Position numbers and translations under genes: made by a program
The notes under the pieces: generated by a model
Seen by the model: the letters and a program-made list of their open reading frames with translations, nothing else
What the model was told of the DNA's origin: nothing
The model's database searches: none
Virus record (IMG/VR): IMGVR_UViG_3300022698_000224
Location: 1-21,890 of that record
DNA from: a virus
DNA length: 21,890 nucleotides
Reading direction: 5' to 3' (one strand)
Shown here: positions 5,123 to 21,890 of the stretch, in pieces
How the letters are laid out: each line of letters starts with the position of its first letter
Numbering within the stretch: the first letter of the stretch is position 1

Positions 5123-6850
5123 ATGGCTTATAAGGGAATTTCAAAATCGAACGGAAGAGTACGTTTTTTTGTAGACCCTATATCCGTAGGAGTGACAAGA
5201 GACGTTGACGGGAGGATTGCGCTTTTCAAAGCTCACGGCGCAGACTCTGTTATCGACCTGAGGACAGGCGAGGTCTTCCTCACGTCAGACACGCCGATGA
5301 CATGGACAATCGAAACGACCACAACGCCGCACACCTACGCATTCGGCATCGGCGGCACAGTGAATGAAGACGTCATGGTCGACTGGGGTGATGGTTCGGC
5401 TATCGAGGTGTTTTCGTCAAACGGCAGGAAGACCCACTCCTACGCGACACCAGGCACCTACAACGTCTCCATCGTCTCTGCTGACGTCACATACATTCAG
5501 CTCTACGATGCTATCGGCTCAACCCACCTCCTGATCACGGCGTTCTCAACCGCTGGCGCTGATCTGGGGATCACGAGCACAGAGAGCATGTTTAGAGAAT
5601 GCACGAACATCGCTTCATGGGGCTCCCCGTTCATCAACACTGCGTCCATCATAACCTTCGACTCCATGTTCAAGGACAACACAGCGTTCAACGAGGACAT
5701 ATCTGGATGGAGCACAGGTTCCTGCCTGAACTTCACCAGCATGTTCGACGGAGCGACGGCATTCGACCAGGACCTTTCAGGATGGGACGTCACATCTCTC
5801 ATCGACGCATCAAGCATGTTCGACAATGGAGCAGGGCTGAGCACAGATAATTATAATGCACTCCTCATAGGATGGGAAGCGCAGGACGTTCAGGACGACG
5901 TGACTCTGGACGCCGGAGATTCGTATTATGGATTGAGTGCAGAATCTGCGAGAGCTGCCCTGATAGCAGACCACAACTGGACGATCAACGATCAGGGTCT
6001 GGAGATACCTCTTCCGAGTTATTCGACCGTTTACGCTGTCGCTGGTAACGACGGAAGCTCTGAACTCATAGACAACGATGCTTTCAACGGATCATCTTGG
6101 TCGTCAGACACTTCACTGCCGTCTCCAATCAGGCAGGCCCCAGCAGCAGCGACAATCGGCTCAAATATGTATGCGTTCGGCGGATATGTCTCGTCGACAA
6201 CATCAAATCTCACAGATAATGATGCTTTCAACGGATCATCTTGGTCTGCTGATGTAGACTTGCCGTCTCCTGGGAGGAGGTCTCACTCTGGATGCGAGAT
6301 AGGAACAGCGCTCCACTGTCTTTTCGGATACACAGGAGTGTATCTGCGAGATAATGACAAATTTGACACGTCTTCATGGTCTGCTGACACTAACGGACCA
6401 ACACCAGGAAGGTACAATTTTGGATGTGCCAGGCTCAACTACACCATTTATGCTTACTACGGACACTCATCAGGAGGGCGAATGAGAGACTGCGATTCGT
6501 TCGACAGGTCATCATGGTCGTCTCTGACGAGCGGTCCTCTTCCAACGAGGAATGGAGTTGTCGGAAGCACCATTGGATCAAAGGTGTACTCATACGGAGG
6601 ATACAGCCCGTCGTTGCTCACGACCGTTGAAGGATTCGACGGCTCTTCGTGGTCATCAGAGACTTCCATGCCAGCCCCAGGAAGGTCAAATTGTGCAGCA
6701 AGCACAATCGGCACTTCGACAGCATATGTATATACCGGCTGGGATGGAACGAGAATCAGAGATTGTGACTCATTCGATGGTTCTTCATGGACGAACGAAC
6801 AAGACATTCCTTCGCCTGGCAGGAACTCAGTATACGGAAGCGGATTGTAG
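5123..6850 (+). CDS. Large PKD + BspA-like (DUF285) + kelch surface protein
   Basis: A 575-aa mosaic protein. Residues about 1-57 are a unique N-terminus (possible virion anchor). Residues about 58-125 look like a PKD-type beta sandwich (VDWGDGS ... THSYATPGTYNVSI). Residues about 154-256 carry DUF285/BspA-like units with SMF--N--AFN-DISGW and SMFDGATAFDQDLSGWDV. Residues about 302-575 form six kelch-like repeats (see separate entry). It sits between a head-connector gene and tail genes. PKD, BspA-like and kelch domains are typical of cell-surface binding, so a head fibre or accessory receptor-binding protein is the likeliest role. Start at 5123 has GAGGAG upstream. No catalytic motif was found. 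Domain recognition is solid; virion location is inference. Confidence 0.8.
   Translation: MAYKGISKSNGRVRFFVDPISVGVTRDVDGRIALFKAHGADSVIDLRTGEVFLTSDTPMTWTIETTTTPHTYAFGIGGTVNEDVMVDWGDGSAIEVFSSNGRKTHSYATPGTYNVSIVSADVTYIQLYDAIGSTHLLITAFSTAGADLGITSTESMFRECTNIASWGSPFINTASIITFDSMFKDNTAFNEDISGWSTGSCLNFTSMFDGATAFDQDLSGWDVTSLIDASSMFDNGAGLSTDNYNALLIGWEAQDVQDDVTLDAGDSYYGLSAESARAALIADHNWTINDQGLEIPLPSYSTVYAVAGNDGSSELIDNDAFNGSSWSSDTSLPSPIRQAPAAATIGSNMYAFGGYVSSTTSNLTDNDAFNGSSWSADVDLPSPGRRSHSGCEIGTALHCLFGYTGVYLRDNDKFDTSSWSADTNGPTPGRYNFGCARLNYTIYAYYGHSSGGRMRDCDSFDRSSWSSLTSGPLPTRNGVVGSTIGSKVYSYGGYSPSLLTTVEGFDGSSWSSETSMPAPGRSNCAASTIGTSTAYVYTGWDGTRIRDCDSFDGSSWTNEQDIPSPGRNSVYGSGL
6025..6840 (+). repeat. Six kelch-like repeats predicted to close a beta-propeller
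   Basis: Six units of about 45 residues each contain [DE]-x-F-[DN]-x-S-S-W-[ST] followed by a P-x-P-x-R turn and then an aromatic-x-x-x-G strand (YAFGG, YAYYG, YSYGG, YVYTG). The first unit opens with a lone YAVAG strand, and the last unit stops after SVYGSG without its final strand. That is the arrangement used by six-bladed propellers to close the ring with strands from both ends. Confidence 0.75.
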
Positions 6851-12378: not shown

Positions 12379-14262
12379 ATGGCTTTGAACATATTAGGCA
12401 GCAACGAGCAGGGTCCTAGTCGAAGGGTTCCAACGACTCAAGAATGGAATAATATCAATAGTGTTCTGACAAACATTAGAATTGGAACGAACACATTCGA
12501 AACACTTGGAGCTGCTGATGGTGAATTGTATATATCTCAGGATCAGTTTTTCCACCAACATGCCGCTGGAATCGATTTCAATAATACAGATGCAGTCATT
12601 GGCCCAGAAAGGGGCCAAGAATGGTATCCATATGTAGATGCGTTGGCTCTTCCAACGATTATAAAAACAACTTCCTATACGAGCTATACGGGACTTGCCG
12701 GACCTTACTATTTCAATGGTAATGAACATTCAAGAGTTGATTCTAAGACCGTTCTCTTCCAAGAACCTCAGACTATAGAGGTGGAAAAACCACTGTTTTC
12801 TGAAAACGTTGCTGTAGGATATTCATGGTTTCTTGAGATTGGCGTTTCCGATGTCTCCTTCGGTCAAGATGTCTTTGGCAATCATGTGATGACGGTAACA
12901 TACATATGGGAACCAGGATTATATTTTGATTCAGATTTTCAGGCAACACTCTTCTCAGGTGCATTAACTGATGATGATGAGTTATGGACAAATAAAACGG
13001 ATTGGCAGGCTTCGGGTATCAGCAAAACTGACGTTATTAATCTATGGTTAGATAGATTTGCTCTACCTCATATTTCAATTCTCGCCGCTGATGATAGTGC
13101 TCTACAGTTGTCGATAATAATTCCTGTTGCCCTCTATCAATGGAATAGCAATCAAACAATTTTAGATCGTTGTGTTCAATTGCTCTTTGGTAGTTGGCTC
13201 GTTGTGGGTTCTGGCGAAAATGAAAGACCAATTGATTTTGGTGGATATGGACTACAGGGCCCGCAGGGTCCAGTCGGCCCGCAGGGCCCGCAGGGCTCGC
13301 AGGGTCCAGTCGGCCCGCAGGGCTCGCAGGGTCCAGTCGGACCTACTGGTCTGCAAGGCCCTACTGGTCCGCAGGGGCCTCAGGGAACGCAGGGGCCTCA
13401 GGGAACTCAGGGGCCTCAGGGAAACTCAAACGTGACAGGAATCCAGTCGATAGAGAAGCTCCCACCAGCCTTCCCAGGAGGACCGGAGCGCTTCCACCTC
13501 GTCAACGATGAGGACAACCCTTCCGCAGGCAGCGACTGGCGCGTCTACGGCTCAGACGACGGCGGAGACAGAGGATGGTATGAGATGGGGCTCGTGATCA
13601 TCGGCCCAGGAGACACCCCAGAAGACCTCTCAACGAAGTGCCTCGATTCGTGGGGCATACAGATAGACGTTGCAGGGACGGACCCTGATCAGCTGATCTG
13701 GTCTGCTGTCACGCAGAAATCTGTGGAGAACTCCGTCAACGGAATCCAGTTAGTCAACGATGAGCTGAACCCTTCAGGGTGGTCGTACTACGGACCTGAC
13801 GAGAATGGGACGAACGAGAGCAAGGAGTGGCGAGAGTTCTCACTCCTGAAGAAGCAGAGCATAGACTTCGACACGACAGAGGGCGCTTTCCACCTGCTCA
13901 ACGATGAAGACGACCCGGAGAACTACAACGTCTACTCCACAACGACAGGAGGCGACCCTGCATGGAACTCCATCGGTGATCTGGCGAAAGAATCCATAGA
14001 AGCAGACGGAGCGCAGGGACAACTCCACCTCATCAACGACGACGCATCTCCAGGCAACCGCTACTGGTACGGCACGGACGCATCAGGGACGAAGGGCTGG
14101 CACGCTTTCCAGCAAGTCTCTGTCGTCGTCGGAGTCCAGATGACAGGCTTAAATCTGGAGCGCTGCATTCAGAGCGTGTGGGTTGCAGACAAGGGCTCCG
14201 TCTCATGGGCGACTGTCTCAGGCTGGCAAGGCGTGCAATGCGGAAGCGGAAGCGGGAGCTGA
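12379..14262 (+). CDS. Tail fibre with collagen-like stalk, chimeric
   Basis: A 627-aa fibre. Residues 1-290 form an AT-rich-coded N-terminal domain, presumably the tail attachment end. Residues 291-350 are 20 collagen-like Gly-X-Y triplets (mainly GPQ, GPV, GSQ, GTQ). The C-terminal part has four related units, at about 13486-13590, 13741-13850, 13876-13985 and 14020-14112, each with [FIL]-[HQ]-L-[VLI]-N-D-[ED], a Pro-containing turn, a Y-[GS] and often G-W; these probably form receptor-binding or trimerising beta modules. The coding style switches from AT-rich to GC-rich exactly at the collagen block, so the gene looks like a recombinant of two fibres. Stop is three nt before the next gene. 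Confidence 0.82.
13249..13428 (+). repeat. Collagen-like Gly-X-Y repeat tract
   Basis: Twenty consecutive Gly-X-Y codon triplets. The DNA is built from near-identical 9- to 27-bp units (for example CAGGGTCCAGTCGGCCCGCA and CAGGGGCCTCAGGGAAC), so slippage and recombination are easy here. Collagen-like repeats form trimeric stalks in phage fibres. Confidence 0.93.
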
Positions 14263-15874: not shown

Positions 15875-15904
15875 TTGAAATGATGCGGGGGCTGTGCATA
15901 TAGT
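15875..15904 (+). promoter_or_regulatory. Early promoter P1, sigma70-like
   Basis: TTGAAA (15875-15880), 18-nt spacer, TATAGT (15899-15904). It lies in the 15728-15904 gap, which otherwise holds no gene. A 7-bp inverted repeat CCGCATC (15856-15862) / GATGCGG (15882-15888) flanks the -35 and may be an operator. The +1 would fall at about 15911, which is the A of the next gene's ATG. Confidence 0.6.
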
Positions 15905-15910
15905 GTGGGC

Positions 15911-16261
15911 ATGAGAGATTCAATCGACATACCGAAAGAGATGTACAGGAAGGGAGTATCCGCTCCTGCGATAGGGCTGTGGAGCTACATCGCCTACAAA
16001 CTGGAGAGAGACCCCGACCACCCGTTCTGCGTCAGGGACATATCGAGGAGCACTTCCGTCTCGCACAGGCGAGTCGGCGAATACCTCAAGGAGCTCAAGC
16101 TCGGCGGATGGATCAAGAGGAGGCGTCTCGAATGCTGCAAGATCACCTACGACATCTCGCGGACTGGAGGTGAAGACGAATACACCTGCAAGCGCTCAGA
16201 GCTCATGGAGCCCGCAGGGAAAGTGTCACCCGCAGTGAGGAAACTCGGCGTAACTATTTGA
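15911..16261 (+). CDS. Small winged-helix DNA-binding protein
   Basis: A 116-aa protein. Residues about 5-75 form a winged helix: a helix PAIGLWSYIAYKLE, then a recognition part DISRSTSVSHRRVGEYLKELKLGGW (residues about 41-65) and a basic wing IKRRRLE. This fold is typical of replisome organisers and small phage regulators (HTH_36/DnaD N-terminal type). A GTG at 15905 is in frame, but it abuts the -10 hexamer, so the ATG at 15911 is the natural first codon. No ribosome binding site is visible. The stop overlaps promoter P2. It could be an early regulator, perhaps of P2 or P3. Confidence 0.68.
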   Translation: MRDSIDIPKEMYRKGVSAPAIGLWSYIAYKLERDPDHPFCVRDISRSTSVSHRRVGEYLKELKLGGWIKRRRLECCKITYDISRTGGEDEYTCKRSELMEPAGKVSPAVRKLGVTI

Positions 16262-16286
16262 AATGCCGCTCCATCTGACTTATGAT
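16258..16286 (+). promoter_or_regulatory. Early promoter P2, sigma70-like
   Basis: TTGAAA (16258-16263), 17-nt spacer, TATGAT (16281-16286). The -35 overlaps the stop codon of the winged-helix gene. Start of transcription is expected near 16293. It reads straight into a structured leader with an intrinsic terminator and then the replication initiator gene. Confidence 0.7.
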
Positions 16287-16292
16287 AAGCGC

Positions 16293-16369
16293 AAGGCGGA
16301 GTTAAACACGCATCACAAAGATTTGCCCACCGGAGCCCTAGAGGCTTGTTTAACCCGGTGGGCTTTTTT
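16293..16369 (+). ncRNA. Attenuator leader or small RNA from P2
   Basis: About 77 nt from the predicted P2 start to the end of the T run. Elements in order: GTTAAACA (16301-16308); linker; GCCCACCGG (16325-16333); a small hairpin AGCC-CTAGA-GGCT (16334-16346); TGTTTAAC (16347-16354), which is the exact complement of 16301-16308; and CCGGTGGGC (16355-16363) pairing with 16325-16333. The order A-B-A'-B' allows a pseudoknot or competing helices. No open reading frame with a start is seen in it. It is either a free small RNA or a leader that controls read-through into the replication gene. Confidence 0.5.
16325..16369 (+). terminator. Strong intrinsic terminator inside the P2 leader
   Basis: A perfect 9-bp stem GCCCACCGG/CCGGTGGGC with a 21-nt loop that contains a minor 4-bp hairpin, directly followed by TTTTTT. 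The start codon of the replication gene is only 21 nt further (16391), with AAGGAGAGAG in between and no room for another promoter. Confidence 0.88.
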
Positions 16370-16390
16370 ATTTATCAGAAGGAGAGAGCG

Positions 16391-17242
16391 ATGAATCTCT
16401 TGCTCGATTCACAACCTCTAGTCGTCATTCCAGAACTTGCAGAGCTCATAGGACTCAACGAATCGATAGTGCTTCAGCAGATTCACTACTGGATTCAGAA
16501 ATCAGAGAACGAGCATGACGGTCATGTGTGGGTTTACAACTCAGCAGAGGAATGGGCAGAGCAGTTTCCTTTCTGGTCTACCGACACCGTGAGGAGGACG
16601 TTGAGGAAGCTGGAGAATGAAAACTTCCTGGTCACCGGCAACTACAACACCGACAAGAGAGACCGGACGAAATGGTACAGGATCAACTATGAAGAGTTGC
16701 AAAATGCAATTGGGCAATCTGCACAATTGCAATTGGGCAATATGCACAAACCATTACCAGAGACTACTACAGAGAGAGTAAAAGGAAAAAGGAAAAAGGA
16801 AAAAGAGGAGAGCCGCTCTGATATGACCGAAGAGAAATACCGAGAGCTCATGCACAAGTTCCTCAGCTTCTTCAAAATGCCAGAGGGAGCGGCAAGCAGC
16901 TTGATAGAGTGCGATGTCGTGTGGCTCAAGAGGAAGTACAAGAAAGAAGTGTTCTGGAAAGATAACTTCGACCACTGGCTGAAAAGGTACAAGAGCGGAG
17001 GGGAGGAAACGATCATGCTCTGGGCAATCTGGTGCAAGGTCTACAGATCCATCCTCCCGTCATACCCGGACAAGAGCATCCTCTCGGGTACATTTTATGA
17101 ATCGGCAGTACGCTTCTCAGAGGAAGTTCCTATGCACGCGGTTGAGAACTACTTCACGGACATGGTGAATTGCGGAAAGAAAAAATTCAAATGGGTCCTG
17201 GAGACGGAGAACTTCAGATCATGGCAGGGCACATGCTCATGA
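16391..17242 (+). CDS. Replication initiator / replisome organiser
   Basis: A 283-aa protein from ATG 16391, which has AAGGAGAGAG upstream (the frame is open to 16346, but that part is the terminator). Residues about 1-105 are a winged helix of the phage replication-protein type: LIGLNESIVLQQIHYWIQKS, W-V-Y-N-S-A-E-E-W, FPFWSTDTVRRTLRKLENENFL and DRTKWYRINYEEL. A Lys/Glu-rich linker (about 120-145) leads to a helical C-terminal domain (KYRELMHKFLSFF ... KFKWVLETENFRSW) that probably contacts host helicase or loader. Origin-like iterons lie in the gene at the domain junction, as in lambda O. It is coupled to the next small gene by ATGA. No helicase motif is present, so host replication enzymes are presumably recruited. 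Confidence 0.8.
   Translation: MNLLLDSQPLVVIPELAELIGLNESIVLQQIHYWIQKSENEHDGHVWVYNSAEEWAEQFPFWSTDTVRRTLRKLENENFLVTGNYNTDKRDRTKWYRINYEELQNAIGQSAQLQLGNMHKPLPETTTERVKGKRKKEKEESRSDMTEEKYRELMHKFLSFFKMPEGAASSLIECDVVWLKRKYKKEVFWKDNFDHWLKRYKSGGEETIMLWAIWCKVYRSILPSYPDKSILSGTFYESAVRFSEEVPMHAVENYFTDMVNCGKKKFKWVLETENFRSWQGTCS
16695..16808 (+). other. Putative replication origin: iterons plus A-rich tract
   Basis: Two adjacent 23-bp units (16705-16727 and 16728-16750) are identical at 21 of 23 positions, sharing the 14-bp core TGCAATTGGGCAAT and a TGCACAA end. Each has hyphenated dyad symmetry (ATTG-GG-CAAT within TGCA...TGCA). TTGCAAAATGCAA just upstream is a partial third site. About 30 nt downstream is a purine tract with GGAAAAA repeated every 7 nt (16780-16808). 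The 23-bp period is not a multiple of three, so protein repetition cannot explain it. Confidence 0.6.
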
Positions 17243-17521: not shown

Positions 17522-17556
17522 TTGACAACGTATATACTTTGGACTATAGTATATAC
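17522..17556 (+). promoter_or_regulatory. Early promoter P3 with overlapping operator dyad
   Basis: TTGACA (17522-17527), 17-nt spacer, TATAGT (17545-17550): nearly the full sigma70 consensus. Laid over it is a 27-bp dyad, GTATATACT (17530-17538) - N9 - AGTATATAC (17548-17556), which covers the spacer and the -10. Repressor binding there would block the polymerase. An A-rich leader and GGAG site then lead into the gene at 17582. Confidence 0.78.
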
Positions 17557-17581: not shown

Positions 17582-18031
17582 ATGAACACAATCACCCGCA
17601 ACGAAGCAGAGCGCAAAATCCGCAACACAAACGGCAAAATCTTCACGGTCGTCTTCACCAAGCGCACCACAGGGGAGAGGAGGGAGATGAACTGCCGGAT
17701 GAAGGTGAAGAAGCACCTCAAGGGCGGAGGACCTGCTTACAACTTCAAAAAGAAAAACCTGATCTCGGTCTACGACCTCGGCAAAGAGGGCTACCGCTGC
17801 ATCCCAATCGAAGGCATCACACACCTGAGGGTCGGTGGAAAATCTTTCAAAGTCGAAGACTGGAGCTTCAAGAGGGACCTCTTCACATGCGCTCACCGGT
17901 ACGCAAAGAAGCTCAAGAGCTTCCGTCCGAACGCAACATACCGCGAGTGCTTCGCAGAAGCGCTCAGAGCAGGGTGGGCGAGCAAGAGCATGAGCCGCAC
18001 ATCAGCAGCTTACCAGAAGTTCTGGAAATGA
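17582..18031 (+). CDS. SH3-like barrel phage protein, probable first early product
   Basis: A 149-aa basic protein. It contains a beta-rich core: F-T-V-V-F-T-K-R-T-T-G-E-R-R-E-M-N-C-R, K-K-H-L-K-G-G (residues about 40-46), N-L-I-S-V-Y-D and Y-R-C-I-P-I-E, resembling small phage SH3-type barrel proteins, then G-G-K-S-F-K-V. A C-terminal helix FRPNATYRECFAEALRAGW follows. Reading from the strongest promoter of the window suggests high early expression, as for host-takeover or nucleic-acid-binding proteins. Start at 17582 has AAGGAG eight nt upstream. Function unknown; the fold is suggested by motif resemblance. Confidence 0.62.
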   Translation: MNTITRNEAERKIRNTNGKIFTVVFTKRTTGERREMNCRMKVKKHLKGGGPAYNFKKKNLISVYDLGKEGYRCIPIEGITHLRVGGKSFKVEDWSFKRDLFTCAHRYAKKLKSFRPNATYRECFAEALRAGWASKSMSRTSAAYQKFWK

Positions 18032-21208: not shown

Positions 21209-21703
21209 TTGGACTTCAATGAAGAGGTGGTCCTGAAGTATAAGCTGATGGTCTGCCGGATAGGCTGGCAGCACACTTCCGACCCCACGCTTCACGAAGA
21301 CCTCGTCCAGGAAGGCATGCTCGGCCTCAAGAAAGCGTGCGAGACGTTCGACCCGACTTTGGGTGTCGTTTTTTCCACGCACGCATACAATAAGGTGCGC
21401 GGCGAGATCATGCGCTACATAAACTACAAGGTGAAGACCGTGCACGTCCCTGTTGCAAAAGGCGAGACATCTTCGACGACAGAGCTCACAGACGAGAGCA
21501 CTCATCATTGTCCTGACTTCTGGATAGACCTCGGAGACGCCATATCGTCTATACGTGACAGAGAGCTCAGGAACATGGCTGGCATGGTCCTGATAATGGG
21601 GATGAACAGGAGGGAGATCTCAGAGAGCACAGGAATCCACTATGAGCGGGTGAAGAAGCTCTGCAGGAGAGCCATCGGACTCGTCAGGGAGAGGATGCTG
21701 TGA
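21209..21703 (+). CDS. Phage RNA polymerase sigma factor (sigma70-like)
   Basis: 164 aa from a TTG start at 21209 with GAGGTGA upstream. Residues about 29-71 are a sigma region 2: H-E-D-L-V-Q-E-G-M-L-G-L-K-K-A, then F-D-P-T-L-G-V-V-F-S-T-H-A-Y-N-K-V-R-G-E-I-M-R-Y-I, the segment that opens and reads the -10 element. Residues about 131-158 (MNRREISESTGIHYERVKKLCRRAI) form a region 4-type HTH. Region 3 is short. Its product should redirect host RNA polymerase to phage late promoters. It lies between terS-like and terL genes and overlaps terL by GTGA. Confidence 0.85.
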   Translation: MDFNEEVVLKYKLMVCRIGWQHTSDPTLHEDLVQEGMLGLKKACETFDPTLGVVFSTHAYNKVRGEIMRYINYKVKTVHVPVAKGETSSTTELTDESTHHCPDFWIDLGDAISSIRDRELRNMAGMVLIMGMNRREISESTGIHYERVKKLCRRAIGLVRERML

Positions 21704-21890
21704 AATTCATGCCATATCAGAAGGATTGGATATTCAGCAAAGCCAGACTGAAGATACTGGAGAAAGCGAGGCGCATAGGAGGTACGTTCTCAACATCGTA
21801 CGGGGTGTGGCGGGAGATGATGAGCGTCAAGAGCCACGATGTGATTGCGGTGACGAGAGATGAGCGCCTGGGGACAGAGTTCGTCGCTGA
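21700..21890 (+). CDS. terL: Terminase large subunit, N-terminal part (3' end cut by window edge)
   Basis: Starts at GTG 21700 (GTGA overlap; an alternative ATG is at 21709) with GGGAGAGG upstream. The 63 complete codons read YQKDWIFSKARLKILEKARR and then IGGTFSTSYG, the Walker A-like region of Mu gp28-type terminases (R-R-I-G-G-T), followed by AVTRDERLGTEFVA at the edge. The rest of the same gene enters at base 1 of the window. Two bases are needed between the two ends to keep the frame. Confidence 0.9.
   Translation, partial: MKFMPYQKDWIFSKARLKILEKARRIGGTFSTSYGVWREMMSVKSHDVIAVTRDERLGTEFVA

Follow-up and report, generated by a model that had tools for sequence, protein, structure and literature searches.

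The 21.9-kb virus record (the window) carries, between a small upstream open reading frame (ORF) and a replication gene, a compact leader in which a promoter, P2, is followed by two interleaved pairs of complementary segments, A-B-A'-B', and a run of six T residues (Table 1). The preliminary description had read this arrangement as promoter, foldable leader, terminator and replication gene, and every part, from P2, A, B, the inner hairpin, A', B' and T6 to the start codon of the replication gene, was found where it had placed them, including the exact complementarity of A and A'. P2 matches the promoter consensus at 10 of 12 positions, a score obtained by 0.5% of the 60-nt pieces of the window; its -35 box overlaps the stop codon of the upstream ORF, and transcription is expected to start at about position 16293. 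The ATG of the replication gene (16391) lies 21 nt past the T-tract, with a Shine-Dalgarno sequence (SD), AAGGAGAG, directly after the terminator. Upstream, the 118-aa product is a candidate regulator; neither it nor the 149-aa protein encoded at 17582-18031 has relatives in IMG/VR. Leader-peptide attenuation was considered and rejected: the short ORF running from ATG 16283 to TAA 16304 begins within the -10 box and shows no conservation. Two other promoter-like sites were noted in this region. TTGAAA-18-TATAGT (15875-15911) ends directly before the GTG (15905) and ATG (15911) of the 118-aa ORF, whose message may therefore be leaderless, and TTGACA-17-TATAGT (17522-17550; 11/12), the best promoter-like site of the region, stands ahead of the 149-aa ORF, whose product has weak WYL_2 similarity only.

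Table 1. Features of the leader and the adjoining genes, in positions of the window.
Feature	Position	Strand	Description
Upstream ORF	15905..16261	+	118 aa, winged-helix-like small protein; no detectable relatives
Promoter P2	16258..16286	+	TTGAAA 16258-16263, 17 nt, TATGAT 16281-16286
Antiterminator P1, 5' strand	16297..16308	+	CGG, bulged A16300, segment A GTTAAACA
Segment A	16301-16308	+	GTTAAACA, exact reverse complement of A' TGTTTAAC
Loop L1 (A to B)	16309..16324	+	16 nt
B, terminator 5' arm	16325..16333	+	GCCCACCGG
Inner hairpin	16334..16346	+	AGCC-CTAGA-GGCT, common to both alternative folds
A', antiterminator 3' strand	16347..16354	+	TGTTTAAC; unpaired 8-nt bulge once the terminator forms
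B', terminator 3' arm	16355..16363	+	CCGGTGGGC; CCG 16355-16357 also pairs with CGG 16297-16299
T6 tract of intrinsic terminator	16364..16369	+	expected 3' end of the ~77-nt RNA
Replication gene	16391..17242	+	283 aa, DnaD-like helicase loader / O-like initiator; phrog_6493, E 6e-47

Exact-stem terminators of this strength are rare in the window, where this is the only one on the + strand and the - strand has one comparable case; shuffling the window 200 times with dinucleotides preserved gave a mean of 0.02 per shuffle. The folding energy of the leader is by itself unremarkable (z = -1.85). For the A:A' match alone, the probability of a chance origin was about 0.2-0.8%, depending on the null; in shuffles, a complement of A' anywhere in the 38-nt leader had p ~0.002, and p fell to ~1e-4 with a CGG-N- extension that was chosen post hoc. 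On the window sequence alone, the A:A' pairing is a suggestion at most, and it is the recurrence of the pairing in two other metagenomic phages that, in our reading of the alignments, settles that it is not due to chance.

Scanning all fetched loci for the order A-B-A'-B' followed by T5 returned one site besides the window's own, in the sister phage G001 (IMG/VR record 3300017989_000436, 24 kb), whose major capsid protein is 80% identical to that of the window. There, the element lies at positions 6310-6390 of locus L018, of which the scan matched 6314-6390, 11 nt before a 192-aa early HTH gene, and encloses the inner hairpin AGACT-TTCG-AGTCT. The two sequences differ yet have CGGAGT, CCGGAG, and ACCCGG in common at equal spacing, and a pattern built from these common blocks and the T-tract found a third member, L044 (positions 6086-6156; record 3300028920_000016), followed by a 64-69 aa ORF and then by an O-like replication initiator that differs from the window's replication protein and whose N-terminal half is related to Akkermansia phage proteins. 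A 19-base pattern returned 18 stretches, namely G001, L044, and 16 without the helices, which indicates that the helices seldom arise by chance; a 21-base pattern returned G001 and four chance matches, again without helices. The sample is thus three sequences, two of which come from phages whose structural genes are related. CGGAGT is kept in all three, and L1 measures 16 nt in the window, 16 nt in G001, and 15 nt in L044. A good promoter stands just upstream in two of the three (the window and L044, the latter with TTGAAA-16-TATAGT 8 nt before CGGAG), the one near the G001 element being weak (8/12), and in two of the three the gene or operon that comes next is related to replication. G001 has a different replication or early region, with two divergent operons (L018 3400-8900), one of which is headed by the element; the intergenic stretch adjoining it (L018 6001-6240) contains alternating acgcgtacgcgtgtacatacgtgt-type repeats and is possibly an origin or operator region. 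No such leader was found at 14 loci encoding relatives of the window's Rep protein (42-58% identity, N-terminal domain).

Covariation in related phages had been proposed in the preliminary description as a check on the leader, and the three members bear the structure out. Across them, A/A' read GTTAAACA/TGTTTAAC, GTGAAGAA/TTCTTCAC, and GTAAGACA/TGTCTTAC, and B/B' read GCCCACCGG/CCGGTGGGC, GAGCTCCCGG/CCGGGAGCTC, and ACCCGCCGG/CCGGTGGGT. Standard pairs occupy all 51 cells (17 pairs in three sequences), and both sides have changed in 4 of the 8 A:A' pairs and 4 of the 9 terminator pairs (8 of 17 in total). Controls with slid partners were 31-51% paired, and on four of five measures no shuffle came up to the observed values. 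These covarying changes are independent of any protein-coding constraint, with statistics limited by the three sequences. When G001 was omitted from training, it was the best untrained match of a nested model in 364 kb (22.1 bits, E 0.02; next best, 17 bits), a modest score because such a model cannot use A:A'; likewise, the RNAalifold consensus recovers the terminator only, since the alternative fold cannot be represented. Because the device recurs with compensating base changes in two other phages, the compact element is very probably a real RNA switch and not a chance fold: we consider its RNA structure near certain and a function in attenuation likely. That the A/A' inverted repeat serves as a DNA operator was also considered and dropped, as an operator would leave the matched changes in both halves unexplained. 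The same data bear on the simplest reading of the locus, in which a plain terminator closes an upstream transcript and A:A' pairs by chance. Taken alone, the terminator is ordinary-looking, and upstream transcripts run into it too; however, A:A' recurs in two further phages with four compensatory pairs, and no other promoter lies within reach of the next gene, so that this reading is hardly credible and appears largely refuted by the covariation already.

The preliminary description had derived a switch from the order A-B-A'-B'. The switch stands, but the argument was incomplete because A:A' by itself overlaps neither terminator arm, and the helix is longer than described. Exclusivity comes from pairs overlooked there, between CGG (16297-16299) and the CCG of B' (16355-16357), which extend A:A' into an 11-bp antiterminator helix, P1, with one bulged A and the inner hairpin enclosed (16297-16308:16347-16357). 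Since this CCG is the loop-proximal start of the terminator 3' arm, the two helices, the second of which ends in the intrinsic terminator, are mutually exclusive in nested form, and the same CGG:CCG pairing is found in all three phages. Considered alone, the antiterminator is paired in 33 of 33 cells, with both sides changed in 4 of its 11 pairs; the CGG:CCG pairs are invariant, and they fit the model while being unproven by covariation because they never vary. Both helices are conserved by compensatory change and exclude each other through CGG:CCG, and the conserved CGGA has no other explanation than the P1 pairing.

In folds of successive prefixes of the three leaders, P1 has the lowest energy among nested structures when the terminator arm is almost fully transcribed (-16.7, -19.3, and -17.7 kcal/mol), and in longer prefixes the terminator replaces it (-23.4, -25.7, and -21.2 kcal/mol). 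The distance from the end of P1 to the end of the U-tract is 12, 16, and 13 nt in the three members, about the length of RNA usually covered by RNA polymerase, and P1 can therefore be complete with the polymerase still on the U-tract. At equilibrium the terminator is favoured by about 3.5-7 kcal/mol, which implies that switching must be kinetic or assisted. A pseudoknot, in which the eight A:A' pairs and B:B' form at once, is also possible and is likewise compatible with the constant 15-16 nt L1; the folding programs used handle nested structures only and cannot score it.

The next ATG follows the T-tract after 21 nt in the window, 11 nt in G001, and 18 nt in L044, with an SD between, and no promoter-like site scoring at least 9/12 occurs within the motif in the three phages, so that transcripts from P2 or from farther upstream have to cross this terminator to express the next gene, which thus depends on read-through. 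Taking these features together, we propose that the leader is probably a cis-acting transcription attenuator that heads a phage replication or early operon, releases a ~77-nt RNA, and belongs to a small, uncatalogued family of switches. In this model, the RNA started at P2 would pair, through its first bases CGG-A-GUUAAACA, with UGUUUAACCCG once the latter exits RNA polymerase, so that the antiterminator would occupy the first three bases of the terminator 3' arm. If it held while the polymerase crossed the U-tract, transcription would continue into the replication gene; if it were prevented or displaced, GCCCACCGG would pair with CCGGUGGGC, and transcription would stop with release of the ~77-nt RNA. 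Termination and read-through themselves, and which of the two is the default state, we infer, and the ratio between them might be set by a phage or host protein, by another copy of the RNA, or by the speed of the polymerase.

Terminated transcripts necessarily yield a ~77-nt RNA, and attenuator and small RNA are consequently inseparable by sequence, which makes two small-RNA readings relevant. In the first, the released RNA would act on its own kind: its A' would capture the A of new leaders, free their terminators, and shut off replication in proportion to the number of phage copies, as in P4 CI-RNA immunity or plasmid copy control. The terminated fold does leave A' unpaired and A free at the 5' end, the two are exactly complementary in all three phages, and phage P4 and plasmid pIP501 offer precedents (PMC4825925, PMC4981023). 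Against this, the near-constant length of L1 hints at intramolecular pairing, each RNA is able to form A:A' by itself, and there is no consistent antisense promoter: the best - strand sites score 8/12 in the window, 9/12 in G001, and 7/12 in L044, hence none of at least 9/12 in the window or L044, although promoter scans are weak evidence. We regard such a loop as unlikely; if it were true, phage DNA copies would report their own number, limiting replication or giving immunity, and one transcript would serve as attenuator and as its own trans inhibitor without a separate antisense gene or repressor. In the second reading, which strikes us as unlikely too, a stable small RNA would have its targets among other messages of phage or host, with the terminator as no more than its 3' end and read-through incidental. 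An own promoter, a compact fold, a strong terminator, and a length of ~77 nt would suit such an RNA, and the IsrK prophage locus can be small RNA and leader both (PMC4825925); yet in all three phages the SD of the next gene follows immediately on the T-tract, and an antiterminator overlapping B' is conserved that would have no obvious use in a plain small RNA.

The preliminary description had further called the element riboswitch-like, and while its view of an attenuator or switch is supported, nothing positive was found for a ligand. A ligand riboswitch or protein-bound attenuator would use the fold of L1, B, and the inner hairpin as its binding site, and the compact fold and a partial conservation of L1 between the window and L044 (CGCA..CA..AGATTT) could be taken in this sense. 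However, L1 is hardly conserved in G001, no Rfam riboswitch matches even at E 10, and metabolite riboswitches are not typical for replication genes, making this reading quite improbable.

The proposed attenuator resembles several known systems in mechanism. In plasmids pIP501 and pT181, a leader terminator of the initiator gene (repR or repC) sets the amount of initiator, as proposed here. A separate 136-nt antisense RNA attenuates repR transcription in pIP501 (PMC4981023), whereas the leader in the window extends only ~77 nt before its terminator and has no consistent antisense promoter. The small DNA-binding protein CopR of pIP501 acts at the same promoter, and the window has its unrelated 118-aa winged-helix-like ORF just upstream. 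Phage P4 also uses a short RNA from the leader of its replication operon, and in its seqA-seqB-seqC immunity, RNA pairing by CI RNA drives premature termination and blocks the phage's own replication genes (PMC4825925). CI RNA is, however, processed from a longer transcript and has two separate pairing sites, while the element here is complete with a single promoter, a single pairing partner, and a single intrinsic terminator; sequence relation between the two was checked by Rfam only. The put RNA of HK022, a structured phage RNA of ~70 nt near an early promoter, affects termination as well (PMC9378689), but it consists of two stem-loops with no terminator of its own and targets distant terminators, whereas here the main hairpin is itself the terminator. 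In prophage Gifsy-1, the IsrK transcript either ends early, giving a short RNA, or extends into the genes downstream (PMC4825925); it differs in sequence and structure and acts on translation of the read-through mRNA. With attenuators and riboswitch platforms in general, the element shares two mutually exclusive helices and a U-tract, and it differs from them in its unusual compactness, the 5' end of the RNA being the antiterminator strand, and in the lack of a known aptamer or of a leader peptide common to all three members. A type III toxin-antitoxin RNA, expected as tandem pseudoknot repeats ahead of a terminator and a ToxN-like toxin gene, was rejected, there being one copy here and a helicase loader or initiator as the downstream gene.

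None of the three members matched an Rfam family at the gathering threshold, the best sub-threshold match being Qrr (18 bits, cut-off 50). Exact leader patterns had no matches, blastn against INPHARED and PLSDB returned chance matches and no recognisable copy, and in a pattern search of 289 genomes the matches among the fetched loci had no T-tract and no more than 6 of the 8 A:A' pairs. Model searches did not find the element in the phylum (388 genomes) and class (198 genomes) to which a Lentisphaerae metagenome-assembled genome (MAG) belongs, a sample of about 590 genomes related to the nearest prophage with such a capsid, or in the phylum of an Armatimonadetes MAG (201 genomes). It was likewise absent from the 6-kb regions checked in Akkermansia phages with an L044-like initiator. 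Three sub-threshold model matches were rejected on examination, one (L048) being an ordinary terminator beside an acetolactate-synthase-like gene and the others L052 and L053. The literature provided mechanistic analogues and not this element. As far as these collections show, it is thus a new RNA family of a known mechanistic kind, a structured RNA absent from Rfam and placed ahead of replication or early genes in phages. The nearest hints of a host, a Victivallales/Lentisphaerae prophage for the capsid and Akkermansia phages for the L044 initiator, point to the little-studied Verrucomicrobiota-Lentisphaerota group. With 11 antiterminator pairs and three bases common to the terminator, the proposed attenuator offers a precise, testable model of replication timing at the RNA level, and the case of G001 shows an RNA control unit that persists through an exchange of the replication module downstream.

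Several observations were made elsewhere in these genomes. Within the replication gene of the window, two 23-bp direct repeats, AAATGCAATTGGGCAATCTGCAC (16702-16747), precede a purine-rich stretch of A and G (AAAAGGA x 3.7; 16780-16815), both lying between the conserved N-terminal domain of Rep and its C-terminal part, a lambda-type layout with the origin inside the initiator gene. In L044, the gene for the O-like initiator has short direct repeats GGCAATG at 6687, 6735, and 6747 and then an AGTAGA-type purine run (6687-6785 overall) in the same place, and GGCAAT is also found in the repeats of the window. A 627-aa tail-fibre-like protein of the window contains collagen-like GPQGPQG repeats (13255-13428). 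Finally, the large terminase gene exits the right end of the window (21700-21890) and resumes at its left end (1-1238), from which we take the record to be a nearly whole, circularly permuted phage genome; a direct join of the two ends is out of frame relative to G001, where the sequence is longer by about two bases.
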